Positions 2,267 to 19,654 of a DNA stretch of 21,168 bases are shown here, piece by piece (positions within the stretch are counted from its first letter, which is position 1; each line of letters begins with the position of its first letter). Both the position numbers and the translations under genes were made by a program. Source of the DNA: a virus; the IMG/VR virus record IMGVR_UViG_3300020009_000079, positions 1-21,168 of that record; one strand, 5' to 3'. A model generated the notes under the pieces. That model was not told the DNA's origin, made no database searches, and saw nothing but the letters and a program-made list of their open reading frames with translations.

Positions 2267-2281
2267 GATACAATGGCTCTC

Positions 2282-2785: not shown

Positions 2786-2811
2786 AGCGGCACACCAACA
2801 GAAAGACAGAA

Positions 2812-3215: not shown

Positions 3216-3231
3216 TTATTTTCATTTGCTG

Positions 3232-3261: not shown

Positions 3262-3293
3262 TCGTCATCGCAACGAATTAACGAAAGACGCAA

Positions 3294-3647: not shown

Positions 3648-3658
3648 CAGTCAAAAGA

Positions 3659-3700: not shown

Positions 3701-3735
3701 CGAATCTTCAGCAACCGACACACAGAAAGAACATC

Positions 3736-4119: not shown

Positions 4120-4130
4120 AAAAAAAGAAC

Positions 4131-4159
4131 GCACCGTTACCCGCTAACGGTGCTATAAT
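4131..4159 (+). promoter_or_regulatory. Array promoter P8 with operator
   Basis: Perfect 9-bp arms GCACCGTTA-N5-TAACGGTGC (4131-4139, 4145-4153) directly abut TATAAT (4154-4159). The leader CTCACCAACAGAAAG follows. This is one of the cleanest family members. Confidence 0.88.
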
Positions 4160-4186
4160 TCAAGCTCACCAACAGAAAGGCACAAA

Positions 4187-4360
4187 ATGCAAATCGGACA
4201 AACAGTCAAAGGCGTCAAGGTCGGAACCTTCGTGATCCTGGGGTTTCGCACCATCGGCAACGAGCAGTATGCGCAACTCAAAGAGGTCTGCCCGACCACA
4301 GGCCGCAAGATGCGCGGAGAGATCGCGTTGCCGATGTCGGCACTCAAATCCATCAACTGA
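4187..4360 (+). CDS. Small conserved phage protein, 57 aa
   Basis: ATG 4187 follows leader CAACAGAAAGGCACAAA. The product starts MQIGQTVKGVKVGTFVILGF and ends ALPMSALKSIN. It looks like a small beta-rich fold with a KEVCPTTG loop. From memory, similar short proteins with VGTFVILGFR occur in other phages without known function. It is the first gene of an unbroken run 4187-5647 that appears to share promoter P8: the next gene starts 9 bases on, and later genes overlap or nearly do. Confidence 0.75.
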   Translation: MQIGQTVKGVKVGTFVILGFRTIGNEQYAQLKEVCPTTGRKMRGEIALPMSALKSIN

Positions 4361-4369
4361 AAGAAAGAC

Positions 4370-4549
4370 ATGCCAGAATACTTTGTATGCGAAGCCGGAC
4401 CGATGGGAGGTTGTCTCATCGTCTGGGCAGGCGCAACCCTGGAAGAGGCGAAGCAATTCATCACCCGCAGAACGTCCCTGTATAACTCTAGGGACAAGAA
4501 GCACGGCAACCCTGCCGAGTATTTCATCTACCATCAAGAAAGCAACTAA
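4370..4549 (+). CDS. Hypothetical small protein, 59 aa
   Basis: ATG 4370 is preceded by GAAAGAAAGAC, a variant of the array leader. The product starts MPEYFVCEAGPMGGCLIVWA and continues into a helical LEEAKQFITRR segment and an aromatic C-terminus (PAEYFIYHQESN). The TAA stop overlaps the next ATG in TAATG, indicating coupling. No family is recognised. Two Cys occur but not in a metal-binding spacing. Confidence 0.68.
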   Translation: MPEYFVCEAGPMGGCLIVWAGATLEEAKQFITRRTSLYNSRDKKHGNPAEYFIYHQESN

Positions 4550-4953
4550 TGCCCTTCAAGCTCACCAAAGAACAAACAGCACAGCGCGACGCAATCGCGG
4601 TGAAGATTCAAGAGCAACGCGAAGCGGTCAACACCGCAGTGACAGCGTTTAATGATGCGATGACCGTCGCACGCGCAGAACTGCAAGAGGCACTCGACGC
4701 CTACAATGAAGCGCTCGCTGAAGCGAAGTCGTTCGCTGAAGATGTCGCGCAGAATTGGGAGAACGATTTCGAAGAGAAGTCCGAACGCTGGCAAGAAGGC
4801 GACAAGGGCAGCGCAGTGCGCGAGATGATCGAAGCATGGCAGAGCGTCGACCTAGACGAAGCAAGCATCGACATGCCCGACGCAGAGATCAGCTTCGATG
4901 ATGTCGAGATGCATGACGAACTGTTGACCGACCTACCGAGCGAAACCGAATAA
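4549..4953 (+). CDS. Acidic coiled-coil phage protein, 134 aa
   Basis: ATG 4549 overlaps the preceding stop (TAATG). Residues about 5-75 form a long, nearly uninterrupted helix rich in Ala, Glu and Gln (KLTKEQTAQRDAI, AELQEALDAYNEALAEA), followed by an EEKSERWQEGDKGSAV segment and a strongly acidic tail. I recall similar proteins, with a KSERWQEG segment, as conserved hypotheticals in phages and plasmids. The low isoelectric point could suit a DNA mimic or a protein-binding role, but that is speculation. It shares the P8 transcription unit. Confidence 0.78.
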   Translation: MPFKLTKEQTAQRDAIAVKIQEQREAVNTAVTAFNDAMTVARAELQEALDAYNEALAEAKSFAEDVAQNWENDFEEKSERWQEGDKGSAVREMIEAWQSVDLDEASIDMPDAEISFDDVEMHDELLTDLPSETE

Positions 4954-4976
4954 CCACCCACAGCAGAAAGCACACC

Positions 4977-5441
4977 ATGAAATTCAGAATCGCGAACGAC
5001 GCAAAGAACAACGCAGGCAAGCTCCTCGACTCGGTCAGCGTACACCAGCACGAGAACGGACGTGTGAGCGTCACAGGCCGCATCAACGGCAGACAGGCAC
5101 CGTGGGAGGGTAGTCTAGGCACGAGCGTAATCTTCGCCGATGCCGAAGCAGAGGCATGGTTGCTCGATCAAAATATCGATTGGATACGGCACGGCAGATG
5201 GCTCGATGAACAGCGCACAAAGCTCGAAGAAGAGCAGCGCATCATAGATGCGGATCGCGCAAAGCGACACGCTCGCGCACGCGAAGAACTCGCCATCATC
5301 GAGGCAGCACAGCGCAAGTTCGCCGTCGCCGTGCGCGAAGGCGTCATGCAATTCGACGGTGTGCCGCAGATCGCGAGCGTCCCAGGTGAAGCAGGCCGCA
5401 AATGGGTATCCGCCTGGGTGCTCGTGGAGGTGCCCGCATGA
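4977..5441 (+). CDS. Hypothetical protein with central coiled coil, 154 aa
   Basis: ATG 4977 follows CACAGCAGAAAGCACACC, the array leader without a promoter in front of it, so it is probably read from P8. The N-terminal 50 residues look beta-rich (VSVHQHENGRVSVTGRINGR). Residues about 70-115 are a charged helix (RTKLEEEQRIIDADRAKRHA), and the C-terminus ends WVSAWVLVEVPA. No recognised domain or catalytic pattern. Its TGA overlaps the next ATG (ATGA). Confidence 0.72.
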   Translation: MKFRIANDAKNNAGKLLDSVSVHQHENGRVSVTGRINGRQAPWEGSLGTSVIFADAEAEAWLLDQNIDWIRHGRWLDEQRTKLEEEQRIIDADRAKRHARAREELAIIEAAQRKFAVAVREGVMQFDGVPQIASVPGEAGRKWVSAWVLVEVPA

Positions 5442-5647
5442 GATGGCACAGGCACAAGTATGCGCACGGGCGGTACATCTGCGGCAACTACACGTGCGAG
5501 AAGGATCATTCTCGCCTGGGTGACGTGTGGAGTCTGAAGTACAACGGTGTCGAGGTGTCGCAGTCGACCACGTTCCGACAAGCGAAAGCAGACGCCTATG
5601 AACATTTTCAGAAAGCGCTTGCGACGTTACGCAATAACGGGTTATAA
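5438..5647 (+). CDS. Hypothetical small protein ending inside promoter P9, 69 aa
   Basis: ATG 5438 overlaps the previous stop (ATGA), which fixes the start against an in-frame ATG further upstream. The N-terminus is His/Arg/Tyr-rich (MRWHRHKYAHGRYICGNYTC) with two Cys. The middle has SLKYNGVEVSQSTTFRQAK. The last residues ATLRNNGL are encoded by the operator of promoter P9, and the TAA stop lies within its TATAAT. It is the last gene of the P8 unit. No family is recognised. Confidence 0.7.
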   Translation: MRWHRHKYAHGRYICGNYTCEKDHSRLGDVWSLKYNGVEVSQSTTFRQAKADAYEHFQKALATLRNNGL

Positions 5648-5648
5648 T
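5619..5648 (+). promoter_or_regulatory. Array promoter P9 inside a coding 3' end
   Basis: TTGCGA (5619-5624), an 18-base gap, then TATAAT (5643-5648). Operator core CGTTA-N5-TAACG lies at 5625-5639. The upstream gene's stop TAA is part of the -10. The class A leader CACACCAACCGAAAG follows. Confidence 0.83.
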
Positions 5649-5674
5649 TCGGTCACACCAACCGAAAGACGAAA

Positions 5675-5890
5675 ATGACCAAATATCAAGCAGCAGACAA
5701 GGCAATCGCCACTTACGACGCGTTTATCTTCGCCGACTTCGGGCGTCCCTTCGATCAAGAGAAGGCCGATCTCCTTGCCGCTGTTGCGGTGTGCGAGTGC
5801 GAAGAAGCCTCGCGTGACCGCTCGGTCAATCAGGCCACACGCGATTACTATCGCGAGCAGGCGAAAATCTTCCGCGCAATTTGCGCATAA
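5675..5890 (+). CDS. Hypothetical small helical protein, 71 aa
   Basis: ATG 5675 follows leader CAACCGAAAGACGAAA. The product is Ala/Glu/Asp-rich and mostly helical (MTKYQAADKAIATYDAFI; QEKADLLAAVAVCE). It has two closely spaced Cys (VCECEE) but no second pair, so zinc binding is unlikely. It is alone between promoters P9 and P10. No family is recognised. Confidence 0.72.
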   Translation: MTKYQAADKAIATYDAFIFADFGRPFDQEKADLLAAVAVCECEEASRDRSVNQATRDYYREQAKIFRAICA

Positions 5891-5895
5891 ACAAC

Positions 5896-5924
5896 GCACC
5901 GTTACCCGATAACGGTGCTATAAT
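5896..5924 (+). promoter_or_regulatory. Array promoter P10 with operator
   Basis: Perfect arms GCACCGTTA-N5-TAACGGTGC (5896-5904, 5910-5918) directly abut TATAAT (5919-5924). The leader GCTCACCAACAGAAAG follows. Confidence 0.87.
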
Positions 5925-5950
5925 CTAGGCTCACCAACAGAAAGCAGACG

Positions 5951-6190
5951 ATGACACACTATTACGAAGAGACGCAAGAGCAGAAAGATGCGTTCTGGTC
6001 CTGGGCAGTCGGCGAAGATACCGCCCGCGCCGCTGTCAAGGCAGTGCTCGCCACTCGCGCCGCTAAGCGCACCGCTGCCGGTGTCATGCGCTGCGGCAGG
6101 TGCATGGGCTCGGGATGGATCAGGAGCTTCGCTCACGTCGCGAATGGTGTATGCTTTGCCTGCGATGGTGCTGGCAACGTTACGCAATAA
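5951..6190 (+). CDS. DnaJ-type zinc-finger-like protein, 79 aa (paralogue of 3294 gene)
   Basis: ATG 5951 follows leader CAACAGAAAGCAGACG. A helical N-terminus (EETQEQKDAFWSWAVG, then an Ala/Arg-rich helix) leads to CGRCMGSG (about residues 48-55) and CFACDGAG (about 68-75). The two Cys pairs match those of the 3294 product (RCMGSG; V-C-F-x-C-x-GAG), but here they lie at the C-terminus, so the module order is swapped. The last codons and stop coincide with an operator-like CGTTACGCAATAAC. Function is unknown. Confidence 0.82.
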   Translation: MTHYYEETQEQKDAFWSWAVGEDTARAAVKAVLATRAAKRTAAGVMRCGRCMGSGWIRSFAHVANGVCFACDGAGNVTQ

Positions 6191-6191
6191 C
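6178..6191 (+). promoter_or_regulatory. Operator-like site without a -10 box (possible relic)
   Basis: CGTTACGCAATAAC is identical to the operator cores at 5625-5638 and 10020-10033, but the next bases (TGGAGCAATCAATG) hold a ribosome site instead of TATAAT. It overlaps the end of the zinc-finger-like gene. Confidence 0.55.
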
Positions 6192-6202
6192 TGGAGCAAT
6201 CA

Positions 6203-6400
6203 ATGAAAGACAAAGACCATGTGGATGATAATCCGTTGTATACTGTTCATGTCTCTCCTTCTTTTCCTGCTGGATGTCAGCACACGTGGGAGTACGCTCA
6301 ACATCTGGACACTGCTGGGAATGTGATCGACGAAGAGCCGACTCACTGCACCAAATGTGGCATGAGCTTCACACGATACATTTTTTTGGAGTGTCCCTAA
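6203..6400 (+). CDS. Small protein with C-terminal CxxC, 65 aa
   Basis: ATG 6203 has a canonical GGAG (6193-6196), unlike genes with the array leader. The product contains GCQHTWEYAQ and HCTKCGMSFTRY. Together, C-x-H in the first and H-C-x2-C in the second could form a small zinc site. No array promoter precedes it, so it is presumably read from P10. Its TAA overlaps the ATG of the next gene (TAATG). No family is recognised. Confidence 0.68.
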   Translation: MKDKDHVDDNPLYTVHVSPSFPAGCQHTWEYAQHLDTAGNVIDEEPTHCTKCGMSFTRYIFLECP

Positions 6401-6579
6401 TGAGCGCACAAACTACCGCAGAACGACAAGCACTGTACCGAGCCCGACGCACCGTCGAAGGTCTTACAGAAGTCAGAGGCATCTACTTGCTGCCCGAGCA
6501 ACACGCCATCCTTCGTGCAATGGCACGCACACTGCAACCCACAGAAAGAAAGCACCACAATGACCGCAACCATAGCTGA
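6400..6579 (+). CDS. Small basic protein, possible ribbon-helix-helix DNA binder, 59 aa
   Basis: ATG 6400 overlaps the upstream stop (TAATG) with GGAG 8 bases ahead. The N-terminus TTAERQALYRARRTVEGL followed by TEVRGIYLLPEQHAILRAMA resembles short phage and plasmid proteins in which a beta strand (VRGIYL) precedes two helices, as in ribbon-helix-helix proteins. This is a pattern-based guess. The C-terminus (RKHHNDRNHS) overlaps the next gene by 20 bases in another frame. If it does bind DNA it is a candidate, untested, for the array regulator. Confidence 0.6.
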   Translation: MSAQTTAERQALYRARRTVEGLTEVRGIYLLPEQHAILRAMARTLQPTERKHHNDRNHS

Positions 6580-6832
6580 CATCGTCGGCAGCACGAAGAA
6601 CATGATCTTCATCCCGGCGCACATGGCGTTGACGTTTGTCGACGCACCGATGATCGGCGTGAAGCTCGGTGAAAAAGGCTTCTGGCCGGTGTTTCATCCG
6701 GACCATGAAGAACTGAACGGACGACCCGCAAGCGATGCGGTGCTTCGATCCGCTGTGCAAGCGAGCATGTTCGGATGGGATGCACCATGCGCACGCGAAG
6801 CGCTCGACTGGCTCGCAGATGGCGCGCAATGA
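6560..6832 (+). CDS. Hypothetical protein, 90 aa
   Basis: ATG 6560 follows the array-type leader ACAGAAAGAAAGCACCACA, which lies inside the preceding gene. The sequence has a hydrophobic MIFIPAHMALTFV stretch (too short and polar to call a membrane segment), then GVKLGEKGFWPVFHPDHEEL, and a helical C-terminus (AREALDWLADGAQ). No family is recognised. It overlaps the following gene by 14 bases. Confidence 0.72.
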   Translation: MTATIADIVGSTKNMIFIPAHMALTFVDAPMIGVKLGEKGFWPVFHPDHEELNGRPASDAVLRSAVQASMFGWDAPCAREALDWLADGAQ

Positions 6833-7460
6833 TGTCGCCTTACGCGGGCGCGACAATCAGCGCAGCCGGGTCTATGCCTGGGAAACGCGGATCACGAAGG
6901 GCACGCACCACTTCGGCACGCTCGCGACCCTGGAAGACTGCCAGGACTACCTGCGCCCGATCTGGCGCGCAGAGCGCGGGCGCTATGGGCGCGCTAGGGT
7001 TGCCGCGCCGCCCATCGAGCGGCCCGCCTGGGGGCAGCGTAGCGCGATTGCGCACGACTGCCACAGGATCACCCTGCCCCGATGGGCGCGCAACCCCTGG
7101 ACGATCCTGCACGAGGCCGCGCACCGGCTGACACCGGACGACGAAGGGCATGGCCCGCGCTTCGTCGGTGTGCTCATGGGGCTCGCTTGTCGGCACCTGG
7201 GGTACGACGCTGACACGCTCATGGCGACGGCTGACGCAATGGGCGTGAAGTACCACGTGCGCAGCATCGGCAGCGTGCCAGTGATCGAGCGCGGTCCCTC
7301 TGCTGCCGTCGCACGAGCGATACGCGACGAAGGCCCGATGACTGAGATGGACCTCGCTTGCTGGTGTGATCTCACCTACTTGCAAGTGCGCGGTGCTGCG
7401 ATGCATTTAATCAAGACGGGACAGGCCCGATGGCTCAGAAAGAAATTAATTCTGATTTAG
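6819..7460 (+). CDS. SprT-like zinc metallopeptidase-like protein
   Basis: 213 aa from ATG 6819; longer upstream starts would run deep into the 6560 gene. HEAAH at residues 98-102 matches the HExxH zinc/catalytic motif, and HGPRF (111-115) supplies a third His, the pattern seen in SprT/WSS1-like and related phage proteins. In the SprT family such proteins cleave DNA-crosslinked proteins; here the substrate is unknown. The C-terminal 50 residues look like a winged-helix-type domain (PMTEMDLACWCDLT, then GAAMHLIKTGQARWL). The N-terminus is Arg-rich. It overlaps the upstream gene, so it is probably read from P10. The start is uncertain because no clear ribosome site is seen. Confidence 0.75.
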   Translation: MARNDVALRGRDNQRSRVYAWETRITKGTHHFGTLATLEDCQDYLRPIWRAERGRYGRARVAAPPIERPAWGQRSAIAHDCHRITLPRWARNPWTILHEAAHRLTPDDEGHGPRFVGVLMGLACRHLGYDADTLMATADAMGVKYHVRSIGSVPVIERGPSAAVARAIRDEGPMTEMDLACWCDLTYLQVRGAAMHLIKTGQARWLRKKLILI

Positions 7461-7490
7461 TTGCGTTACGCGGCAACGGTGGTGTATACT
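7461..7490 (+). promoter_or_regulatory. Array promoter P11 with operator
   Basis: TTGCGT (7461-7466), an 18-base gap, then TATACT (7485-7490). GCGTTA-N5-CAACGG is the operator, with the right arm 11 bases from the -10. It begins immediately after the metalloprotein stop codon. The leader CACACCAACCGAAAG follows. Confidence 0.78.
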
Positions 7491-7516
7491 TCGTGCACAC
7501 CAACCGAAAGACAGAA

Positions 7517-7846
7517 ATGAACGCACTTCAAGCCGCTTGCCCCAAATGCAACCCGCTCTATCCTGAACTGGACGAAGACGGTATTCCTTACACGTGTTAT
7601 GCATGCTGCGACACCGGCATTGTGTCGAAGGATTACGCTGACGCTTACCTGCGTGATCTGGACGACGCTTGCGAGTATCGCGGTATGCGTCCCGTCGTGA
7701 ACGGCAAGCATCAGCGTCTCGACGGTGATGAATACGATAGCTGGTACGTCGCCGAGCCCCTGCTGCCTGCTTCGCTGTTCCCGAAGGTTCGCCGCGCCGC
7801 GCCGGTTTACGCCGCCGAGATCGAATTCGACGATTTACCTTTTTAG
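7517..7846 (+). CDS. Cys-rich zinc-knuckle-like protein, 109 aa
   Basis: ATG 7517 is chosen because it follows leader CCGAAAGACAGAA; an in-frame ATG at 7430 lies upstream of promoter P11. CPKC (about residues 8-11) and CYACCDTG (about 27-34) form a zinc-ribbon-like pair similar to the two other Cys-pair proteins in this block. The rest is acidic (DLDDACEYRG, DGDEYDSWYV) and ends EIEFDDLPF, a phenylalanine-ended acidic tail. Tails like this recruit replication proteins in SSB, but that parallel is speculative. An HNH endonuclease gene follows after 7 bases. Confidence 0.78.
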   Translation: MNALQAACPKCNPLYPELDEDGIPYTCYACCDTGIVSKDYADAYLRDLDDACEYRGMRPVVNGKHQRLDGDEYDSWYVAEPLLPASLFPKVRRAAPVYAAEIEFDDLPF

Positions 7847-7853
7847 GCTAAAC

Positions 7854-8339
7854 ATGCTAACTGTTGAACGACTCAAAGAGTTGTTGACCTATGAGCCCGA
7901 TACCGGGCTCTTTGTTCGACGCATCACCATCGGCAATGCTAGGGCATGTCGGGCCGGTGAAATTGCCGGATACCACAGGACCGATGGATACGTATGCATC
8001 TATGTCGACAATCGAAGGTATCTCGCGCATCGTTTGGCATGGCTATACATGACCGGCGAATGGCCGACGACTAACATCGACCATTGGGACCATGACGAAT
8101 CAAATAACCGTTGGGAAAATTTACGCCTTGCTGGTCAGTCAATGAACAACGGCAACATGACAACACCGATCTCCAACACTTCAGGCGCAAAAGGCGTGAG
8201 CCCTTCGGGATACGTCAATAAGCCGTGGAGAGCAAGACTTCAACACCGAACGCTAGGCTACTTCGCCACAGTCGAAGAAGCGAAAGCCTGTTATGACAAG
8301 GCAGCACGCGAACTTTACAAAGAATTCTTCAACCCGTAG
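7854..8339 (+). CDS. HNH endonuclease with C-terminal AP2 domain (copy 2)
   Basis: 161 aa; paralogue of the 2282 product along the whole length (LAWLYMTGEWPTT, NTSGAKGVS and EEAKACYDKAARE are shared). HNH residues: H59 in HRLAW, the DH pair at 76-77, and NN at 84-85. The AP2-like C-terminal half starts near residue 108. ATG 7854 follows the upstream stop by 7 bases; upstream in-frame starts lie inside the 7517 gene and are rejected. As with copy 1, the gene has neither promoter nor array leader and is followed directly by an array promoter (P12), which suggests two insertions at equivalent sites. Activity is inferred. Confidence 0.92.
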   Translation: MLTVERLKELLTYEPDTGLFVRRITIGNARACRAGEIAGYHRTDGYVCIYVDNRRYLAHRLAWLYMTGEWPTTNIDHWDHDESNNRWENLRLAGQSMNNGNMTTPISNTSGAKGVSPSGYVNKPWRARLQHRTLGYFATVEEAKACYDKAARELYKEFFNP

Positions 8340-8342
8340 CGG

Positions 8343-8366
8343 GTTACGCGATAACGGTGATATACT
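8343..8366 (+). promoter_or_regulatory. Array promoter P12 with partial operator
   Basis: GTTA-N5-TAAC core (8343-8355) and TATACT (8361-8366), with TAACGG 9 bases from the -10. No clear -35. The class B leader (GCTTCAGCAACCGAAAACAGAAAG) follows. Confidence 0.75.
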
Positions 8367-8400
8367 CTAGGCTTCAGCAACCGAAAACAGAAAGCACAGA

Positions 8401-8646
8401 ATGATTGATCTCAACCGCTTCGCCTTTAACAAAACATCCGGCCTTCTTTCCGCTAGCCTCTCTGACCTGGGCATGCGTCGCCTGCCGACCGAAGTCGAGA
8501 TTCGCTCGCACCTGACCGGGCACGTCGTCAAGTTCGTGTACGACACCGAAGCCGCAGAGCGTCACGAGTTCTGGGATGGCGAGATGGCCGAATACGTGCC
8601 GACGACGGCATGCAAAGTGAAAAAGCTCGCGATTATCGCGGCCTAA
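8401..8646 (+). CDS. Hypothetical small protein, 81 aa
   Basis: ATG 8401 follows leader ACAGAAAGCACAGA. It begins MIDLNRFAFNKTSGLL, continues LGMRRLPTEVEIRSHLTGHVVKFVY, and ends VKKLAIIAA. The middle reads as alternating beta strands and may be a small beta domain. No family, Cys pair or membrane segment is recognised. It is alone between P12 and P13. Confidence 0.74.
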   Translation: MIDLNRFAFNKTSGLLSASLSDLGMRRLPTEVEIRSHLTGHVVKFVYDTEAAERHEFWDGEMAEYVPTTACKVKKLAIIAA

Positions 8647-8655
8647 AAATAAAAG

Positions 8656-8685
8656 GCACCGTTACCGCAATAACGGTGCTATAAT
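8656..8685 (+). promoter_or_regulatory. Array promoter P13 with operator
   Basis: Perfect arms GCACCGTTA-N6-TAACGGTGC (8656-8664, 8671-8679) directly abut TATAAT (8680-8685). The leader CACACCAACAGAAAG follows. Confidence 0.87.
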
Positions 8686-8730
8686 TCAAGCACACCAACA
8701 GAAAGCAGCTCACCTCTACGCCTAATCATC

Positions 8731-8925
8731 ATGAAGAAGACCATCACCTACACTGCCGATAACGGCGACATCTATGAGGCCACAAAGGCCGCGCCTGCGG
8801 ACGCCTGGGATGTGAATCATCCTGCCGGTGCGTTCCGCATGTACGGCACGCAACTCGAAGTGCAGCACACGATGAAAGAGATCGCGAAGAAAATGTCGAA
8901 AGACGAAGGGGAACAACATGAGTGA
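8731..8925 (+). CDS. Hypothetical small protein, 64 aa, with unusually long leader gap
   Basis: ATG 8731 is the only sensible start, but it lies 26 bases after the GAAAG of the array leader, compared with 7-10 elsewhere. Product: MKKTITYTADNGDIYEATK, then a short loop, then a helical charged C-terminus (MKEIAKKMSKDEGEQHE). It could be a small beta-hairpin plus helix. No family is recognised. Its 3' end overlaps the next gene by 8 bases. Confidence 0.65.
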   Translation: MKKTITYTADNGDIYEATKAAPADAWDVNHPAGAFRMYGTQLEVQHTMKEIAKKMSKDEGEQHE

Positions 8926-9181
8926 ATTTGCCAACATTAAAGTCGCCGGGCGCGCAACCATTGAAGACTGCGGTCATTACCAAATCGAAGAGAGCGTTGT
9001 GCGTGTGTTCGCGAACACTCCCTTTCAGTGCGCGGTGCAAATCAGGCATCACGGCGGCATCACGCACGGCGGACGTGGCGGCAAGAAGCGTAACATGCTC
9101 GCGACGGTACAACTTGATCGCGCCGGTTTGACCGAACTGCGCGACGCACTCAATGCTTACTTGGAGACAGTCAATGGCTGA
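8918..9181 (+). CDS. Hypothetical protein, 87 aa
   Basis: ATG 8918 is preceded by GAAGGGGAACAAC, a purine-rich ribosome site. Predicted beta-rich: ANIKVAGRATIED, VVRVFANTPFQCAVQI, then a Gly/His/Arg-rich loop (HHGGITHGGRGGKKR) and a C-terminal helix (LTELRDALNAYLETVNG). The basic Gly/His loop could contact nucleic acid, which is an inference. It overlaps the next gene by 8 bases. Confidence 0.72.
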   Translation: MSEFANIKVAGRATIEDCGHYQIEESVVRVFANTPFQCAVQIRHHGGITHGGRGGKKRNMLATVQLDRAGLTELRDALNAYLETVNG

Positions 9182-9407
9182 TTACGCAGGATGGCCGAAG
9201 GACATGCTCGAAGACATCTTCGATGGCATGATGAAGAACATCGCCGAGCGTCCCTATTGGGTCGGCATGGGCGAGAAGCAAGCGTTCGACGCTGTGCGCA
9301 ATGGGCGCATGACGTTCGAAGATTTCGTAGCATGGCACGTGTACCGCTTCGAAGAGATCGAACAAGCAAAGAGCTTTGTTCATACCGGGCGGTCTAACCG
9401 CACATAA
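9174..9407 (+). CDS. Hypothetical small protein, 77 aa
   Basis: ATG 9174 is chosen for its TTGGAG ribosome site 7-12 bases upstream. The sequence is helical and Met/Glu-rich (WPKDMLEDIFDGMMKNIAERP; FEEIEQAKSFVHTGRSNRT) with a FEDFVAWHVYRFEEIE segment. No family is recognised. It is the third gene of the P13 unit. Confidence 0.7.
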   Translation: MADYAGWPKDMLEDIFDGMMKNIAERPYWVGMGEKQAFDAVRNGRMTFEDFVAWHVYRFEEIEQAKSFVHTGRSNRT

Positions 9408-9424
9408 CCCACGAAAGGCAAACC

Positions 9425-9748
9425 ATGAAGAACAGCGAACTACTCAACACCGAGCCCGAACTACTTGGCAGCATAGACAGGCAAAAGCGCTTTCTCGTGT
9501 CGGCGTTCTCCTATCCATTGCCGTGCCCTAATCAAGGCTGCGGCAAGCCCGTCAACGTGTTTGAAGCAATGGGCATCGACATCGATGACTACGTCTTCAG
9601 CGGTCCTAATTCGAGCTATAACCAGCATCAGAAGTACGAATGCCCGCACTGTCACTACAAGCTACGCAAAATTGTGCCGATCTTCAAGCTCAATGAGCCT
9701 GGGCATCATTGGGTGATCGATGAGCCTTTGCCACCCAAAAACAAATAA
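9425..9748 (+). CDS. Zinc-ribbon-like protein, 107 aa
   Basis: ATG 9425 follows CACGAAAGGCAAACC, an array-type leader. CPNQGCG (about residues 34-40) and CPHCHY (about 74-79) give four Cys in a zinc-ribbon arrangement with a 34-residue loop. The rest is mixed with a Pro-rich end (DEPLPPKNK). The variant spacing of the first pair (C-x4-C) is unusual but compatible with zinc ribbons. Its function is unknown; it is the last gene before P14. Confidence 0.76.
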   Translation: MKNSELLNTEPELLGSIDRQKRFLVSAFSYPLPCPNQGCGKPVNVFEAMGIDIDDYVFSGPNSSYNQHQKYECPHCHYKLRKIVPIFKLNEPGHHWVIDEPLPPKNK

Positions 9749-9756
9749 TCGAAATA

Positions 9757-9798
9757 TTTTCGCCGTTACGGCTATAACGGCGGAAATCTGGGTATACT
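9757..9798 (+). promoter_or_regulatory. Array promoter P14 with long operator, shifted register
   Basis: TTTTCGCCGTTA-N6-TAACGGCG with one extra G in the right arm (9757-9768, 9775-9786). TATACT lies at 9793-9798, so TAACGG is 18 bases from the -10, as in P7. The class B leader (CTTCAGCAACCGGAAACAGAAAG) follows. Confidence 0.8.
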
Positions 9799-9832
9799 CT
9801 AGGCTTCAGCAACCGGAAACAGAAAGACAGAA

Positions 9833-10003
9833 ATGAAAGCCTTCGAAATTTTCAACCCCTCGTTCAACGACATGCCCCTGGCCGACCAAATCGCCCACGG
9901 CATCAACGACTGGTGCGTCATCGGTGTGAGCGGTCACGAGTTCTATGGCCGCACCGCTGCCGAAGCCCTCGAAATCTGCGCGATGTATCAGGACAACAAA
10001 TAA
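9833..10003 (+). CDS. Hypothetical small protein, 56 aa
   Basis: ATG 9833 follows leader ACAGAAAGACAGAA. Product: MKAFEIFNPSFNDMPLADQI, then a C-terminal part with WCVIGVSGHEFYGRTAAEAL. It has mixed alpha/beta character, and no family is recognised. It sits alone between P14 and P15, so it is very likely real despite its length. Confidence 0.73.
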   Translation: MKAFEIFNPSFNDMPLADQIAHGINDWCVIGVSGHEFYGRTAAEALEICAMYQDNK

Positions 10004-10013
10004 ATTGAGAAAC

Positions 10014-10044
10014 TTGCACCGTTACGCAATAACGGTGCTATACT
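10014..10044 (+). promoter_or_regulatory. Array promoter P15 with operator
   Basis: TTGCAC (10014-10019), a 19-base gap, then TATACT (10039-10044). Perfect arms GCACCGTTA-N5-TAACGGTGC (10016-10024, 10030-10038) abut the -10. The class B leader (CTTCAGCAACCCGAAACAGAAAG) follows. Confidence 0.86.
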
Positions 10045-10078
10045 CTAGTCTTCAGCAACCCGAAACAGAAAGCGCAAA

Positions 10079-10354
10079 ATGAACGACTATTCTAACGCAG
10101 ACCACATCAACAACGCAGCCGCCCGCGCTCTGGTCCTGGGCGTTCGTCGCAAGTTTTGCGGCATCACCAAAATCTACGGCTCGCGTTACATGAGCCAACT
10201 CGAAACCCTGTGCGGCTACATGGGTGGCGCAACCCGCACGGGCTACGTGCTGACCATCAGCGGCGTCGACAAGGAATTCAAGGCATCCAAGGATGCGGGC
10301 CTCTTCATGGAAGCGAAGATCAACGATCTTTTCGACCTGGGCATCATGGGCTGA
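10079..10354 (+). CDS. Hypothetical protein, 91 aa
   Basis: ATG 10079 follows leader ACAGAAAGCGCAAA. The sequence starts with a helical MNDYSNADHINNAAARAL, then LGVRRKFCGI and a middle with LCGYMGGATRTGYVLTISG, and a C-terminal KINDLFDLGIMG. No family is recognised. The last codons and stop form the 5' arm and loop of an intrinsic terminator, so transcription probably ends right at the gene. Confidence 0.75.
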   Translation: MNDYSNADHINNAAARALVLGVRRKFCGITKIYGSRYMSQLETLCGYMGGATRTGYVLTISGVDKEFKASKDAGLFMEAKINDLFDLGIMG

Positions 10355-10363
10355 TGCCCTTTT
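10339..10363 (+). terminator. Intrinsic terminator overlapping a stop codon
   Basis: Stem GGGCATC / GATGCCC (10339-10345, 10353-10359) with a 7-base loop, then TTTT. The 5' arm and loop are the last codons and stop of the preceding gene. Confidence 0.75.
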
Positions 10364-10367
10364 GATG

Positions 10368-10373
10368 TATAAT
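10368..10373 (+). promoter_or_regulatory. Array promoter P16 (terminator in place of operator)
   Basis: TATAAT (10368-10373) sits 5 bases after the T-run of the terminator. No -35 or CCGTTA/TAACGG is seen. The class B leader (CTTCAGCAACCGCAAACAGAAAG) follows. Confidence 0.65.
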
Positions 10374-10407
10374 CAATTCTTCAGCAACCGCAAACAGAAA
10401 GACAGAA

Positions 10408-10632
10408 ATGACCAAATCGCACATCCTCTTCTCCGGCCTTGAGCGTGACACACGCGGCATCAAAGTTCGCTTCTCCATCATGGGCAAGGGCTCGCTCGCA
10501 GGCTTCGAGGTCGCCACGTGCACGAGCGGCTACGCGTTCCCCTCCTACGGTGCCGCACTCAAAGGCGCACGCCGCGCACTCGTCAAGATCGAGCGCACCG
10601 GCAAATTTCCCAATATGTGCGAGCGCTTCTAA
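10408..10632 (+). CDS. Hypothetical small basic protein, 74 aa
   Basis: ATG 10408 follows leader ACAGAAAGACAGAA. The sequence is basic and beta/alpha mixed: ILFSGLERDTRGIKVRFSIM, then AGFEVATCTSGYAFPSYG, then AALKGARRALVKIERTG at the C-terminus. No family is recognised. It is the last plus-strand gene of the block. Its stop overlaps the stop of the convergent minus-strand gene by two bases (10630-10631). Confidence 0.75.
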   Translation: MTKSHILFSGLERDTRGIKVRFSIMGKGSLAGFEVATCTSGYAFPSYGAALKGARRALVKIERTGKFPNMCERF

Positions 10633-14127: not shown

Positions 14128-15585
14128 TTAACCGTTGGTGCTGAATCCCATGCGAATGAACATCGCATCAGTTGCTTCTTTCAACAAGCGATAGCCCGCT
14201 TCGTCTGCGACGTGATCTTCTGCATCAGTGTCGATGTCGTCCGGATCACGCTCTAGACGTGGCAACACTGGTATCGTGCGGATGAAATGCGGGCACGTGT
14301 TGAAGATGAATATGCCCGCATCTTCCATGCGCGGCTTGAGCGATGCGGTCATGCGATTGCGCATCAGAGCCCATCGCCTTTTGCGTGAGCCCGGAGTCTT
14401 GTCGGCCTTCGTCCAGTACACACCGAGCGCTGATTGCTGCTTCGCTGGACTATCCCCGTTGATCTCATCGAAGATGCTGCTGTCCGCTGGCCCAGGCGTA
14501 CACCGCATGTGAATGCCCCACTCTTTCTGTCTCTCGATAATGCCATTGCCGATTGTTCTATCGGATAGCTTCATGCCTTGATTAGGCTTGCCGTTCCAAC
14601 CGTACCACTCATTGATCCTGAACAACGTACCTCGTGGATAGGACCAGCGTCGACCATCTGCACGATAGCACTCTGTACCGTCACTCTCTGCCCACCATCC
14701 CACAGAGAACGGTTTGCTCGATCCCCAATCGAATGCACGATCAATCGCCCATGATGGAGGTATCGCGAAGGGCTCGATGACATGCACATCACGACGCCAT
14801 ACATCATCGAACATGCCGCCTGCGACGATGTCCCAATCACCTTCGAGCATAGCGCGCACAAGGGCAGGAGAGCCCAGGCCCGCAAGCCTTGCGCGATACA
14901 TCGGGTCAGACTTGAGAAGAGCGGGATTGTCTGCGAGCTTCGCCGGTATGAATGCGCGCCGCATGCCTCCATCTTCTTCTTCCATCTGCCTGATCGCGAA
15001 CGGTGCGACGTTGTCTATGAACGCTGCCTTCACCCAATTGTGCCCGATACCGCCTGGATTGCCACTCACCACAACACGCGGGAACAAGTCTGCATACTCA
15101 GGGGGAACAACGAGCCCCACCATGCGCACACGTCCGCGCAGGTAGTTATACATCGGCTCTGTCCAGTGTGTTATTTCATCGATCAATAGAACATGAATCT
15201 CTGCCCCTTGATAGTTGTATACGTTGTGCTCGTATTGGCAGTGACACAGGTGTATAACCGAGCCGTTATAGAAACGTATCAGACCCTCTTGATAGTTGAT
15301 CTTGCACCATCGAAAAAGAATCCACCCAGCAAGCAAAAGAGGGAACGATGTCGGTCCCTCCATGTGGTTCTTGTGCAAGTCTGGAAACGTGCGCCGGAAT
15401 ATATAGACCTGAAGCCCAGGTATCAGTACACACCATGCAATAGCCGCAACGCGCAAGAGATAACTCTTGCCGCCGCCCGCTGCACCACCATACAGAAGCT
15501 CAGTCGCCTTCGAAAGAAACGCGAGCCCTTGCTTATACTGCAAGCGCAGAATTGAGCCGAGATCAGGACTCGGGTTCTGACTCAC
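14128..15585 (-). CDS. terL: Terminase large subunit
   Basis: 485 aa; GTG start at 15585, inside the 3' end of the small-subunit gene. Walker A GGAAGGGKS (33-41) and Walker B VLLIDE (132-137) mark the packaging ATPase. The C-terminal RNase H-like nuclease shows FDWGSSKPF with its Asp, then PADSSIFDE, then DAEDHVADEAGY carrying the final Asp pair. Domain order ATPase then nuclease matches terminase large subunits, which translocate DNA through the portal and cut it. Length fits. The small gene 13910-14116 follows directly. The exact terminase subfamily (and thus cos or pac packaging) cannot be told from the sequence alone. Confidence 0.95.
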   Translation of the reverse strand: MSQNPSPDLGSILRLQYKQGLAFLSKATELLYGGAAGGGKSYLLRVAAIAWCVLIPGLQVYIFRRTFPDLHKNHMEGPTSFPLLLAGWILFRWCKINYQEGLIRFYNGSVIHLCHCQYEHNVYNYQGAEIHVLLIDEITHWTEPMYNYLRGRVRMVGLVVPPEYADLFPRVVVSGNPGGIGHNWVKAAFIDNVAPFAIRQMEEEDGGMRRAFIPAKLADNPALLKSDPMYRARLAGLGSPALVRAMLEGDWDIVAGGMFDDVWRRDVHVIEPFAIPPSWAIDRAFDWGSSKPFSVGWWAESDGTECYRADGRRWSYPRGTLFRINEWYGWNGKPNQGMKLSDRTIGNGIIERQKEWGIHMRCTPGPADSSIFDEINGDSPAKQQSALGVYWTKADKTPGSRKRRWALMRNRMTASLKPRMEDAGIFIFNTCPHFIRTIPVLPRLERDPDDIDTDAEDHVADEAGYRLLKEATDAMFIRMGFSTNG

Positions 15586-15994
15586 CGGGCTTGCCCTCGA
15601 TAGTCACGCGCAACACCGGAGGGGCAAGAGGCTGTCCTCCTGGGCCTGTGACCTCCGTTCGCGTGAGCTTAGGGGCAACGTACTCGGCGAGCTTGCCCAG
15701 GAGGTCTACAGCCCGCGCAGGGTCCGCAGCGATAGGATGGCGCACGACATCACGCCCGCCGCCTTCAGGCCGATCTAGGTACTCACCCGGCACACCGTTG
15801 GCAACCTGATTGAGCCACAGCCGCACGTTGTCGGCGTTTTCGTCAATCAAGTCTTGCACTATCCCTTTGAATTCTCGCGTCACTTTGTTTTGCACACCCT
15901 TCTTGCGGCCAGAGTTCTCCATTTTGCGCCCGCGAAAATTCCATCCCGGCGAGCGGTCTTCGGGATCGTATGGAGGTTTAGATTCATCGCTCAT
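15563..15994 (-). CDS. terS: Probable terminase small subunit
   Basis: 143 aa from ATG 15994, chosen because MSDESKPPYDPEDRSPG is a normal start, whereas the longer frame begins in a likely promoter region. NSGRKKGVQNKVTREFKGIV and the later AVDLLGKLAEYVAPKLTRTE are of the type I recall from phage terminase small subunits, which recognise the packaging site. It overlaps terL by 23 bases, a common arrangement. No clear Shine-Dalgarno is seen, so the start is less certain than the identity. Confidence 0.82.
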   Translation of the reverse strand: MSDESKPPYDPEDRSPGWNFRGRKMENSGRKKGVQNKVTREFKGIVQDLIDENADNVRLWLNQVANGVPGEYLDRPEGGGRDVVRHPIAADPARAVDLLGKLAEYVAPKLTRTEVTGPGGQPLAPPVLRVTIEGKPGESEPES

Positions 15995-16034: not shown

Positions 16035-16061
16035 AGTATACGACGCATCGCAACTTGTCAA
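16035..16061 (-). promoter_or_regulatory. Possible minus-strand promoter for terminase genes
   Basis: On the minus strand, TTGACA (16061-16056) and TATACT (16040-16035) are separated by only 15 bases, shorter than the ideal 17. It lies just upstream of terS and overlaps the 3' end of the 16058 gene. Confidence 0.35.
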
Positions 16062-16345
16062 GAGGTCAACGACTCACTAGCGAGCTTTTTGTACCACCAA
16101 TCACGCGCCGGATCGCCAGAACGCACCGCGAACTCGCCTGAAGCATTCACCGTAACAAAAGCGTTTTCCGTTATGTCGCATATGTCAGCACGACATTGGA
16201 TGCCGATCTCATTGCCAAGCTCAACTGCATACCACTCATCATGCGGATACATTTTTTGTAGTCTTGCAATAATTCGCTCAACCGTATCTGCTCTAGCTCT
16301 TAACCCTGCGACGATTTGCTCAACTGTTTCTGTTCTAGTAACCAT
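16058..16345 (-). CDS. Hypothetical protein between helicase and terminase, 95 aa
   Basis: ATG 16345 is set by TTAGGAG with 8 bases of spacing; a longer frame would run through the palindrome at 16378-16508 and is rejected. The first 30 residues form an amphipathic helix (ETVEQIVAGLRARADTVERI) with a repeat-like VEQIVAGL / VERIIARL, perhaps a dimerising coiled coil. The rest is mixed (PHDEWYAVELGNEIGIQC, then FAVRSGDPARDWWYKKLA). No family is recognised. Confidence 0.75.
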   Translation of the reverse strand: MVTRTETVEQIVAGLRARADTVERIIARLQKMYPHDEWYAVELGNEIGIQCRADICDITENAFVTVNASGEFAVRSGDPARDWWYKKLASESLTS

Positions 16346-16377
16346 AAATTTAACTCCTAAGTTAACACCGTACAAAA

Positions 16378-16508
16378 GCAACACCGGGCAGGATGGCGGA
16401 ATGGTGGAATTTCTTGATTTCCCTGAACTATCTCTAGAGCGTATCTTATAAGGGGTATTTCGGGTAAATTGAAAAAAGACGCCATTCCGCCATTCCGCCC
16501 GGTGTTGC
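16378..16508. repeat. 29-bp imperfect palindrome with 73-bp spacer
   Basis: Arms 16378-16406 and 16480-16508 pair over 29 positions with one A:C mismatch and two G:U-type positions. The outer 12 bp (GCAACACCGGGC) are perfect. The right arm holds GCCATTCC twice in tandem. The spacer is AT-rich (TATCTTATAAGG). It lies just downstream of the SF3 helicase stop and upstream of the 16058 gene on the minus strand, in a gene-free gap. It could be an origin, a structured transcript element or a mobile-element relic. Confidence 0.85.
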
Positions 16509-16511
16509 GAG

Positions 16512-18272
16512 CTAGTATTTATCACTATTGTATTCATTCATAGTGCGGTTGAGTAAAACGCGCCCTTCATCTGTCAGTTTTACCCAACGATACAGGCGAG
16601 CCTTGCTAGTGCGGTGTTCATGCATCGACGGCATGACCAATGTTTGATTGTCTTCATCTGTCCACATTCGACCATTGGTCATGACATACTCATTGAATTC
16701 TGACTTGCTCTCCATCTTGCGCTTATCCACGCCGGTATTGCGGCACCATGCTTGATACATCCTGAAGAACGTCGTGCACTCGATCTGACACTTGTCGGTT
16801 ATCGCTTCCCACACGGCACGCTTCTCCGCATTACCGCCCGATGTAGACGAAGACTGGAGCTTTTCGAGTTCGACCTTGCCAATGTACTGCGTTGCTTCAT
16901 GGATGAACGTGCCGACGTGATCCATGTTCTTGCGGTGTATTGCAAGTTGTCGAAGAACTTCTTCAGGTGGATTCAATCTTCCCTCTGCCAAGTATTTTTG
17001 CGTACCTTTCACAAGCCATAGAATAAGCGCTGATTTCCCTTTAGGCTTTGAGCATCTGTCCATGATCGTCGGGTCTTGCACGAAATGTGCATAACCTGTC
17101 TCGACCTGTTCCGGTGAGCCGTATTTCACCTTCATCTCGACCGGCATCAGCCGATTGAACATGGCATTATCTTTTCGGGGAATGTTTGGCGTGAAGTTAG
17201 TTGCGAGCGTGAACTTGTGCGTTGCCTTAAATGTCTTGAAACCCTGGTGTGCGTGTCGTGCTGTTATTGTGTCATCTCCTGTCAGCGACTTAATCATTGA
17301 TGACTTGAGGCCAGTGTCGCGCTCTGTCTCTGACATGAGCGCAAAGCGAACACCGTTCAGAGTTGCTTTTGCGTATAGCTCATTGTTGCCGCCGTCTGCC
17401 TTTGATTCTTTGCTGAAGTCCGTGTCCATCTTGCATGCGTAATCCCCTAGCGCATTAGCTATTGCGTCGGTGAAGAGGCTCTTGCCATTATTCCCGCTGC
17501 CGAACAGCACGACAAGTGCATGATCCCAACGCAGACCCGTGACACAGTAGCCCGCCCAACGATGCATGAACTCATACATCTGTTCACTGCCGAATATCTG
17601 TCGAGCCACTTTCTCCCATTCCGAATAATCGGCATCAGGATCAAACCTCGTGCCCGTCGTCACTGTCAAATAATCCTCCGGTTTCGCGTATCTGTGCTCA
17701 CCCGTCTTAAGATCGACAACAATACCGTCAGCGCAACTCAAAAGAAGTGGATCAGGATTCATCTCTACAGGCTTTGATATATGCAGCGCTGTCAAATGGT
17801 TATAGACCATCGTCGCAATTGAACTGATCGTGTTTGCCTTGCCCCATCGCTGAATCAGTTTCATCAAATGATTGCGCTGTCGATCAAACTGATCTCGATC
17901 TTCCGGCGCTACCGTCTGCATGTTCGTCATGAGATCATTGAACTCATTGCGTATGATGTCCTTGGACATCGTTGCGACTTGTGCATGAATCAACTCGCGA
18001 ATCTTTGCACGTGACCACATGCCGGTAGTCGGGTTGTATGCGCATAACTCTGAACCTTCATTCTTCTGACCTCGATCCATGCAGAACAGATGCCCGTACT
18101 TACGAAGGAACGCATGCTTCAAGTCGGTGTCAAGAACGCCGATACCGTCGACTGTCGCATGATCTTCTAAGTTAGGCGCATCAATGACAACTCGCTCACC
18201 TTTGGGTTTTAACCTCTCGCGTTCAATTCGTTCTTTGTCCTGTTCGCTGTCATTGAGGTCTTCGGGATTCAT
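16512..18272 (-). CDS. SF3 helicase, P4/D5-like replication protein
   Basis: 586 aa. GSGNNGKS (258-265) is the Walker A of SF3/D5-type helicases, ALMSETE (311-317) fits Walker B, and the later THKFTLATNFTP (N at 359) fits the sensor/motif C Asn. The N-terminal 170 residues are helical, and a beta-rich D5_N-like region (about 180-240, ADGIVVDLKTGE, then WAGYCVTG) precedes the ATPase. The C-terminus carries a winged-helix-like tail (ARLYRWVKLTDEGRVLL). SF3 helicases unwind DNA at the origin. The ATG overlaps the primase stop (ATGA) with GGAG 7 bases upstream, so primase and helicase are coupled. The primase is separate here rather than fused as in P4 alpha. Confidence 0.92.
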   Translation of the reverse strand: MNPEDLNDSEQDKERIERERLKPKGERVVIDAPNLEDHATVDGIGVLDTDLKHAFLRKYGHLFCMDRGQKNEGSELCAYNPTTGMWSRAKIRELIHAQVATMSKDIIRNEFNDLMTNMQTVAPEDRDQFDRQRNHLMKLIQRWGKANTISSIATMVYNHLTALHISKPVEMNPDPLLLSCADGIVVDLKTGEHRYAKPEDYLTVTTGTRFDPDADYSEWEKVARQIFGSEQMYEFMHRWAGYCVTGLRWDHALVVLFGSGNNGKSLFTDAIANALGDYACKMDTDFSKESKADGGNNELYAKATLNGVRFALMSETERDTGLKSSMIKSLTGDDTITARHAHQGFKTFKATHKFTLATNFTPNIPRKDNAMFNRLMPVEMKVKYGSPEQVETGYAHFVQDPTIMDRCSKPKGKSALILWLVKGTQKYLAEGRLNPPEEVLRQLAIHRKNMDHVGTFIHEATQYIGKVELEKLQSSSTSGGNAEKRAVWEAITDKCQIECTTFFRMYQAWCRNTGVDKRKMESKSEFNEYVMTNGRMWTDEDNQTLVMPSMHEHRTSKARLYRWVKLTDEGRVLLNRTMNEYNSDKY

Positions 18273-19228
18273 TCATTATCTCCATAGAACGGACCGCGCC
18301 TGCGCTCGCCCTCTTCAATGATCGTGTCGGCAACCCATGATTCTAGGTCGCCCCAATTCTTTGCCTCACAGTGCCCGTGATGGCACTTGAAGCCGCCCAT
18401 GTAGCCATTGGCCTTCATAGGAGGAGCAACAGCACTGCCGGTGTTGGCACGTGCGGTGTGGTGCTCGATCCAGGGGCACGTAATATCAAACCACCCGCCG
18501 CCGGTATCGCCTTTGAACAAGCCCAGGAATTTAAGCGCATCGCGCATGATCTTGAACGACTGAATCCGCGCCTGTGTCACACCGTCATTCGGCTCGACGT
18601 AAGGCATCCTGAAGCGCTCGATGATGCCGAACGCTTCACGCACCTCTTGCCATGAGACGCGCACCTCTGGTCGCCACCTCCACACCTTGCATTGCCACGG
18701 ACCATCAGCACGCGGCTTGCCGTTGATGCCTTGAGGCAAGCGCAGCACGCGTGTGACTCCTGCCATGCCAGGGTCTACACCACCGTCTGTGAGCTTCTTG
18801 ATGATCTCGCGAATAGCGTCGCCGACATGGTCGGCATTGGTGTGCGGCTGATCGAGAAAATAGGTGAACTGGAAATTACCCGGTGATGTCTCGATGACTA
18901 GAGTAGACGGCAAGTCTTTCGGCAGTGCGTCATACTTAATCTTCGTATTGACATCATCGATCATGATGCACCACGTTCGCGAGAACTGTGCTTTGCGTCG
19001 CTTGAATCGGCCATCTTCTTCGAGAAACGAACTTATGGCGACGTAGTTGTTGCGATCATGATGCAGTGGACATTCCCCACCTTTCCACGGTACGGGACTC
19101 CACGACATCGGTGCTGCTTCGCTAGGATTTCCTTTGACAGAACAGAGAATTGCTCTCTCTTCTGGTCCCATGCCTTTGAACAACTCGGCAAGGACAACGG
19201 AATTAGTTATGCCATCAAGGGCAGGCAT
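18269..19228 (-). CDS. DNA primase, archaeo-eukaryotic (RepB-like) type
   Basis: 319 aa from ATG 19228. CIMIDDVNTK carries the Asp pair D91-D92 expected for metal binding in the archaeo-eukaryotic primase (AEP) fold, and RVLRLPQGINGK (160-171) is a typical later conserved segment of RepB-like AEPs. The C-terminal part (about 251-290) has CPWIEHH and KCHHGHCE, a likely zinc site. AEPs make RNA or DNA primers. Coupling to the SF3 helicase by an ATGA overlap supports a two-protein primase-helicase. The start follows AGAAAGG in a duplicated leader element (19240-19254). Family call from motif reading, not a search. Confidence 0.82.
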   Translation of the reverse strand: MPALDGITNSVVLAELFKGMGPEERAILCSVKGNPSEAAPMSWSPVPWKGGECPLHHDRNNYVAISSFLEEDGRFKRRKAQFSRTWCIMIDDVNTKIKYDALPKDLPSTLVIETSPGNFQFTYFLDQPHTNADHVGDAIREIIKKLTDGGVDPGMAGVTRVLRLPQGINGKPRADGPWQCKVWRWRPEVRVSWQEVREAFGIIERFRMPYVEPNDGVTQARIQSFKIMRDALKFLGLFKGDTGGGWFDITCPWIEHHTARANTGSAVAPPMKANGYMGGFKCHHGHCEAKNWGDLESWVADTIIEEGERRRGPFYGDNE

Positions 19229-19291
19229 CTTCTTTCTAACCTTTCTGGGTTCGACTGTTACTGCTGGGCAGCCTCGCTGGCTGGGTCATAA

Positions 19292-19320
19292 ATTCTACAC
19301 GCTATTTCCGGCGCGAGCAA
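19292..19320 (-). promoter_or_regulatory. Minus-strand promoter for primase-helicase
   Basis: On the minus strand, TTGCTC (19320-19315), a 17-base gap, then TAGAAT (19297-19292). It is 63 bases upstream of the primase ATG. No CCGTTA/TAACGG operator is seen. Confidence 0.55.
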
Positions 19321-19343
19321 CTCCTTCTCATCCATTGGGGCTA

Positions 19344-19371
19344 TTGACAGAGCCCGGTTCTATGGTAAAGT
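19344..19371 (+). promoter_or_regulatory. Plus-strand promoter for DUF3567-like gene
   Basis: TTGACA (19344-19349), a 16-base gap, then TAAAGT (19366-19371). A leader CCCAGAAAGGACAGAA leads to ATG 19400. It lacks the array operator. Confidence 0.6.
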
Positions 19372-19399
19372 CAGCCATTCGAACCCAGAAAGGACAGAA

Positions 19400-19654
19400 A
19401 TGGAACTCAGATGCTTATTCGAGAACGAGCACTACATCGTGTGCACGCTCACCGGCAGCGGTGCTCTACGCACCGAAGGTATTGAGGTAGTCAACAAGTC
19501 GGATCACGTCTGCACTTATTTGACTGGCAAGATGCGCCGCGTCTTCATGCGTCAAGTCATCGACTGGCGCAAAAACACACCCGATGAAAAAGTAGTCGAA
19601 GCACGACTAGAAGAATTTCTCGTGCTCAACACGCAGCCGCTAGTGCTTCACTAG
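19400..19654 (+). CDS. DUF3567-like protein
   Basis: 84 aa from ATG 19400. It begins MELRCLFENEHYIVCTL, has a middle TEGIEVVNKSDHVCTYLTG followed by a helix (RVFMRQVIDWRKNTPDEK) and a second helix (EARLEEFLVLNTQPLVLH). From memory, Burkholderiales DUF3567 proteins share this build: an N-terminal beta part with YEIVDK-like residues, a helix with a conserved V/I-x-x-L/I pattern, an acidic helix with EEFL, and a terminal P-L/V-VLH. Function of the family is unknown to me. It is the best host clue in the window. It has its own promoter and is divergent from the replication genes. Confidence 0.75.
   Translation: MELRCLFENEHYIVCTLTGSGALRTEGIEVVNKSDHVCTYLTGKMRRVFMRQVIDWRKNTPDEKVVEARLEEFLVLNTQPLVLH

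Follow-up and report, generated by a model that had tools for sequence, protein, structure and literature searches.

Inverted tandem iterons behind a D5-type helicase gene as the probable replication origin of a group of uncultivated tailed phages

Introduction

The window analysed here is a 21,168-nucleotide stretch of viral DNA (positions 1 to 21,168 of IMG/VR virus record IMGVR_UViG_3300020009_000079), and just downstream of its primase and helicase genes lies a large imperfect palindrome. A first-pass annotation offered three explanations for this structure, namely an origin near a P4-like primase-helicase, a hairpin in a transcript and a small mobile element. Which of these, if any, accounts for its anatomy, its place and the way it changes between related phages? 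We conclude, with a probability of roughly 85%, that the palindrome serves a tailed phage as replication origin (or initiator-loading site), used by the adjoining D5-type helicase. The conclusion is drawn from the anatomy of the palindrome, its fixed place, its near-fixed spacing, its co-variation with the helicase, and the occurrence of the same layout in Lactobacillus phage A2 and the archaeal plasmid pRN1. An origin is thus the best supported of the earlier suggestions, although "P4-like" describes the enzyme only loosely, the helicase being of the D5_N/SF3 kind with a separate RepB-type primase.

Results

The palindrome is a composite of tandem 8-bp units and a dispersed octamer

The 29 paired positions with a single true mismatch reported in the first-pass annotation (16378–16508) were recounted as 26 Watson-Crick pairs, two G-T pairs and one mismatch. 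The inverted-arm score reaches 30, compared with a shuffle maximum of 12 (n=60), and the predicted folds are exceptionally stable both as RNA (z = -7.4) and as DNA (z = -8.0), with 0/200 shuffles as stable in either case. Among inverted repeats of the window with loops of 20–130, the palindrome ranks first; it is single-copy within the viral record, and a DNA search of the phages collection returned no match. Its spacer is AT-rich as originally noted (62% A+T versus 46% in the window), and only 0.5% of equal-length stretches are equally A+T-rich. The structure is flanked on one side by the helicase stop (16512) and on the other by a small ORF with a likely start at 16348 and an AGGAG motif upstream of it, and it lies upstream of the packaging genes on the minus strand. 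The interval between the helicase stop and the start at 16348 is non-coding, but a mechanical ORF from ATG 16537 crosses the palindrome, so that the gene-free location claimed for it hinges on that start. A smaller inverted repeat (16632–16683; 20-nt arms, 85% complementary) is found within the 3' end of the helicase gene.

The arms themselves are composite: their outer 9 bp are copies of an octamer, and only the inner part consists of 8-bp tandem units (Table 1). The tandem repeat seen at first pass, GCCATTCC, was confirmed in the right arm. With the ends of the arrays placed by eye, the two sets of units have an outer span of 113 bp.

Table 1. Features of the palindrome and of the neighbouring genes in the window.
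Feature	Coordinates	Strand	Basis or remark
Outer arm, copy of octamer CGGTGTTG (GCAACACCG on +)	16378..16386	-	Inverted relative to 16500-16508
Iteron array, one direction	16387..16410	.	Three 8-bp units GGCAGGAT GGCGGAAT GGTGGAAT; from sequence
A+T-rich core, proposed melting region	16411..16483	.	62% A+T
Inverted iteron array	16484..16499	.	Two 8-bp units ATTCCGCC ATTCCGCC
Outer arm, copy of dispersed octamer, CGGTGTTGC	16500..16508	+	Inverted relative to 16378-16386
D5-type SF3 helicase, 586 aa, proposed iteron-binding initiator	16512..18272	-	PF08706 E 1.4e-14, phrog_1156 E 2.2e-68
Helicase C-terminal domain, proposed iteron-binding part	16515..16955	-	Model pLDDT 82
Primase, RepB_primase domain, separate gene	18269..19228	-	PF16793 E 1.7e-8
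Small ORF, 96 aa, between palindrome and small terminase	16058..16348	-	No Pfam or PHROGs match
Gene in small-terminase position	15563..15994	-	Identity by place only, no family match
Large terminase	14128..15585	-	PF03237, phrog_979

The octamer CGGTGTTG is dispersed at a density of about one per 1–2 kb in these genomes. Together with CAACACCG it is the commonest 8-mer in four of six records (the window, G001–G004 and G006), with 57, 53, 32, 26, 26 and 17 copies on both strands of the six. The copies fall mostly within ORFs, in all frames and on both strands, and the reversed pattern has 0–5 copies where tested. A literature search for the octamer string returned nothing relevant.

The place and spacing are fixed in relatives whose arm sequences diverge

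Scans by helicase and by large terminase, the latter serving as the anchor for finding relatives, yielded a group of uncultivated phages which share the gene order primase, helicase, palindrome, small terminase, large terminase and portal; a search of genome_contigs for the host, again by large terminase, found only distant relatives (35–58%). Merging of duplicates left 14 distinct sites including that of the window, L047 (no helicase match) and L027 and L034 (contigs without the helicase region) having been left out. Looking for the palindrome in related phages had been suggested at the outset, and it is present behind the helicase stop codon at all 14 sites, at each of which the inverted pair beats all 60 of its own shuffles. 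It is also the top inverted repeat in the long records G001, G002 and G003, while those of G004 and G006 fall below the reporting score of the inverted-repeat scan. The arm sequences diverge widely between relatives (e.g. GGCAAAAC, GTGAAACA, GCAAAAAT and CCCTAAAC), and the anatomy of tandem 8-bp units opposite an inverted copy is kept. Across 12 lineages (L031 and L045 were omitted as near-duplicates), the lag-8 periodicity amounts to 265/384 (0.69) compared to 0.31 in shuffles, and 0/1000 shuffles reach it. The outer span of the arrays is 106–117 bp over the 14 sites and 111–115 bp in 12 of them. In some of the relatives the A+T content of the core is only mildly raised; for G004, 25% of stretches are equally A+T-rich.

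These observations also bear on the idea that the palindrome is a small, MITE-like mobile element. Its inverted ends would suit such an element, but it occurs once in the record, it occupies the same place behind the helicase with different arm sequences in all relatives examined, and the first-pass annotation itself noticed no target duplication, which together make this explanation extremely improbable.

The exact pattern of the window's repeat matched 14 stretches, one being a near-identical contig of the same phage and the remaining 13 sharing a different sequence that looked coding on inspection by eye. Exact-pattern scans for the same iterons in other elements (satellites) gave 4 and 9 stretches. 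Among the nine of these 13 that were examined, a helicase of the same kind was found only in L184, which is the family's own contig, and the other four are family contigs already known. Two of the stretches, L185 and L193, are repeat-rich regions. In L003, four tandem 10-bp CGGTGTTGCT copies (the last being CGGTGTTGTT) lie directly behind the palindrome at 6503–6541. In the L045 contig reading frames are broken and the helicase row is incomplete; its helicase, large terminase and portal genes are each split over two frames, reflecting either sequencing errors or decay.

In several relatives, changes in the arms preserve the repeated unit at the expense of pairing

A palindrome may be maintained either by pairing of its arms or by repetition of a binding unit, and we compared the differences between the arms, held in register, in the 12 lineages. 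In L003, L035 and L040 an identical cross-arm difference is present in both units of an arm, and in L035 and L042 differences are swapped between units. Such changes break arm-to-arm pairs yet preserve the 8-bp unit, and DNA binding sites therefore fit these four lineages better than a hairpin does; in the others the arm differences do not discriminate between units and pairing. Arms varying in relatives without matching changes had been named beforehand as evidence against the first-pass reading, which passes that test.

The alternative is an RNA hairpin in the leftward transcript which ends, protects or processes the mRNA between the replication and packaging genes. The very stable RNA fold, the location between two functional blocks on one strand and the matching arms in relatives are all as it would predict. 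However, a consensus scan found no terminator-like site (GC-rich stem, short loop, T run), there is no Rfam match, and the lineages with a difference in both units (L003, L040) or with swapped units (L042) lose pairs while keeping units. Nor is there an obvious reason why a hairpin should have an 8-bp period and a near-fixed span, and the same layout in pRN1 is needed there for replication (PMC4234260). We consider the transcript hairpin of the first-pass annotation unlikely.

The palindrome changes together with the helicase

Relative to the proteins of the window, identities range over 42–80% for the helicase, 64–86% for the primase, 64–85% for the small terminase, 85–94% for the large terminase and 81–90% for the portal. 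In a partial Mantel analysis (13 taxa, 78 pairs; L031 was excluded as it has no primase), the palindrome was associated with the helicase given the four other genes (r = 0.43, 1/2000 permutations). There was no association with the primase (1479/2000), small terminase (834) or portal (954), and a weak trend with the large terminase (76/2000). The pair L042 and L043 provides an example: the helicase and palindrome DNA is about 47–69% identical, but identity is 95–100% over 5.8 kb starting about 100 bp past the palindrome, a pattern read as one natural exchange ending just behind the palindrome. The palindrome adjoins the helicase gene and neighbouring DNA is co-inherited, so the correlation reflects a shared cassette and is not proof of recognition. 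The link is moreover not one to one, since the iteron units of L041 differ from those of L043 and L031 although the helicases are 94–96% identical. Comparison of L040 with L042, and of L030 with L038, shows that the C-terminus and N-terminus of the helicase both diverge more than its core.

Terminases often cut near the small-subunit gene. The position of the palindrome directly upstream of the packaging genes would suit a pac or cos site for packaging, with the product of the small-terminase gene just downstream recognising it, but the palindromes of L042 and L043 differ despite small and large terminases that are 99% and 100% identical, respectively, and this function is highly improbable given also that the permutations link the palindrome to the helicase and not to the small terminase. 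An operator with repeated sites for a regulator of the small-terminase or replication operon is also very unlikely. The repeated sites do lie near a promoter-like TTGACA-15-TATACT (16035–16061, outside the 16–18 spacing rule of the consensus scan), and the CGGTGTTG octamer brackets both the palindrome and this promoter-like site. Against this, palindrome similarity tracks the helicase instead of the small terminase, and the palindrome keeps its place behind the helicase even where the gene before the small terminase is missing or replaced.

The small gene at 16058–16348 was found by eye to be absent from some relatives (e.g. L003, L026 and L038) and to have different small ORFs in its stead in others (e.g. 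L035, L041 and L046), and its place between the palindrome and the small terminase was judged, likewise by eye, to be an insertion hot spot.

The layout is common behind D5-type helicase genes

We surveyed 25 loci for an inverted pair with a span of 70–140 and a loop of at least 30 within 700 nt behind the helicase gene. Of these, 22 were from isolated phages, hand-picked for host spread among the 60 matches listed of 884, and three (Bordetella phage BIP-1, pRN1 and L125) had been seen beforehand. At 13 loci, comprising 10 of the 22 phages together with BIP-1, pRN1 and L125, the pair was reached by at most 2/100 shuffles. The other 12 phages have no such inverted pair within 700 nt, and the layout is therefore common but not universal. 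Scores at the positive loci were 11.5–22.0 compared to 6.5–12.0 for in-gene control stretches, such that the two weakest, A2 (11.5) and Javan57 (12.0), overlap the controls. By eye, the arms are built of tandem 8–10-nt units in 11 of the 13, PSA and YS43 being the two in which this is not clear. Hosts among the surveyed loci include mycobacteria, Microcystis, Salinibacter, Arthrobacter, lactic acid bacteria and an archaeon (pRN1). In phage A2 (NC_004112) the arms fall inside the annotated rep_origin.

The helicase resembles known primase-helicases and has a putative DNA-binding C-terminus

Structure comparison of the modelled helicase (mean pLDDT 73) gave matches to AsfvPrimPol, poxvirus D5/E5 and the SaPI5 primase-helicase, the last (7om0) with Z 21.7 over 391 aligned residues (rmsd 5.5). 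For the C-terminal domain, the best VIA matches are RFX winged-helix DNA-binding domains, with a modest Z of 7.5 (2.5 Å over 78 residues), and Foldseek gave no match at E <= 0.001; the predicted structure of this domain is compatible with a winged helix. The window carries terminase, portal and head genes, which identifies it as a phage with its own set and not a satellite island. In the circular record G002, GC skew climbs along nearly the whole length and gives no origin signal.

Discussion

For the phage of the window we infer origin activity, iteron binding, melting and loading, in the following way. The two 8-bp iteron arrays face each other across the A+T-rich core and would be bound by the C-terminus, putatively a winged helix, of the helicase whose gene lies immediately upstream. 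Two facing sets of subunits could then assemble as two hexamers around the core, which ATP-driven helicase activity would open, and the neighbouring RepB-type primase would prime the exposed strands. On such a scheme the palindrome would be a consequence of one binding unit being present in both arrays in opposite orientation, and no hairpin is needed.

Phage P4 provides a familiar precedent, its ori1/crr containing short iterons recognised by the primase-helicase alpha. The P4 ori site is mentioned in PMC6092414, and the alpha chain itself includes a Toprim primase (PMC4234260). The helicase chain of the window, in contrast, has no Toprim-type primase, and the primase is a separate protein of the RepB type.

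Parallels are also provided by pRN1 and BIP-1. In PMC4234260 and PMC3869888, an approximately 100-bp stem-loop 3' of orf904 is described as required for pRN1 replication, with a loop that is sensitive to 3-bp deletions, and PMC4234260 proposes the same origin type for BIP-1. The intolerance of the pRN1 loop is in keeping with the near-fixed span in the window's group. Both elements resemble the window in having an inverted structure of about 100 bp behind an SF3/D5-type replication gene (at 53 nt in pRN1 and 466 nt in BIP-1), and, as in the window's group, the structure is retained while the sequence changes. In PMC4234260 the authors describe pRN1 as devoid of iterons, and a term search of PMC3869888 found none of 'iteron', 'tandem' or 'direct repeat'. 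The pRN1 arms nevertheless hold two 9-nt units (TTATGTCCA TAGTGTCCA), and those of BIP-1 contain 9-nt units of the GTTTGCCTC type, twice. The tandem units are thus 9 nt in these elements as opposed to 8 bp in the window, and pRN1 further differs in having an archaeal host and in combining primase and helicase in one protein, where the window has a separate primase gene.

The phage satellites offer a second comparison. PICI origins are located 3' of rep, and in them two sets of iterons surround an A+T-rich stretch (PMC6092414). The C-terminal domain of SaPI Rep and Cch2 recognises the downstream direct repeats, perhaps as two hexamers, and Cch2 binding survives deletion of the inverted repeats but is lost on deletion of the direct repeats (PMC7581432). 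The window shares with these elements an origin-like site immediately 3' of the replication gene, the two iteron sets around an A+T-rich region and the helicase fold match, a likeness which takes no account of set orientation; SaPIs and PICIs are satellites, however, whereas the phage of the window encodes terminase, portal and head proteins itself. In phage A2, likewise, repeated units (ACGGGAGGAT) in inverted orientation flank an A+T-rich core directly after a primase/helicase gene, but the A2 helicase is only distantly related (25.8%), and A2 has extra copies and less regular spacing.

Most likely, then, the palindrome is a fast-changing version of an origin type already described in a few phages, in phage satellites and in an archaeal plasmid. 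What looks new is the make-up of the 'stem-loop' origins, whose tandem iterons meet head-on at near-fixed spacing and evolve fast with the helicase; a literature search reaching few subscription papers found no paper stating that stem-loop arms are iterons. We give even odds to a broader proposal, in which the D5/SF3 stem-loop origins (pRN1, BIP-1 and the window's group) and the iteron origins (PICIs and A2) are one kind. In each, two tandem 8–10-bp sites would face an inverted pair at a near-fixed span so that two helicase hexamers can be loaded head-on, the stem being a by-product. The helicase and origin of the window's group would then form a fast-evolving specificity cassette that is swapped between phages near-identical in other respects, possibly escaping titration or hijacking by competitors. 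Under such a proposal, origins that have been described either as stem-loops or as iterons would share one explanation. The proposal also provides a sequence rule for finding phage origins (tandem 8–10-bp units, inverted, with a span of roughly 85–130 bp, behind a D5-type helicase), and the relatives provide a natural series of helicase-origin pairs in otherwise similar phages in which the evolution of initiator specificity can be tested.

Other repeats in the window

A second inverted repeat lies upstream of the primase gene (19233–19400; CCTTTCTGGGTT / AACCCAGAAAGG), and a similar motif occurs in one place each in G002 (57827–57962) and G003 (53387–53538). At 1300–10408 on the plus strand, many short genes each have their own promoter, with an inverted repeat resembling CACCGTTA-N5-TAACGGTG directly before TATAAT, and with CACACCAACAGAAAG and ATG after it. 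This repeat looks like a candidate operator common to a regulon.
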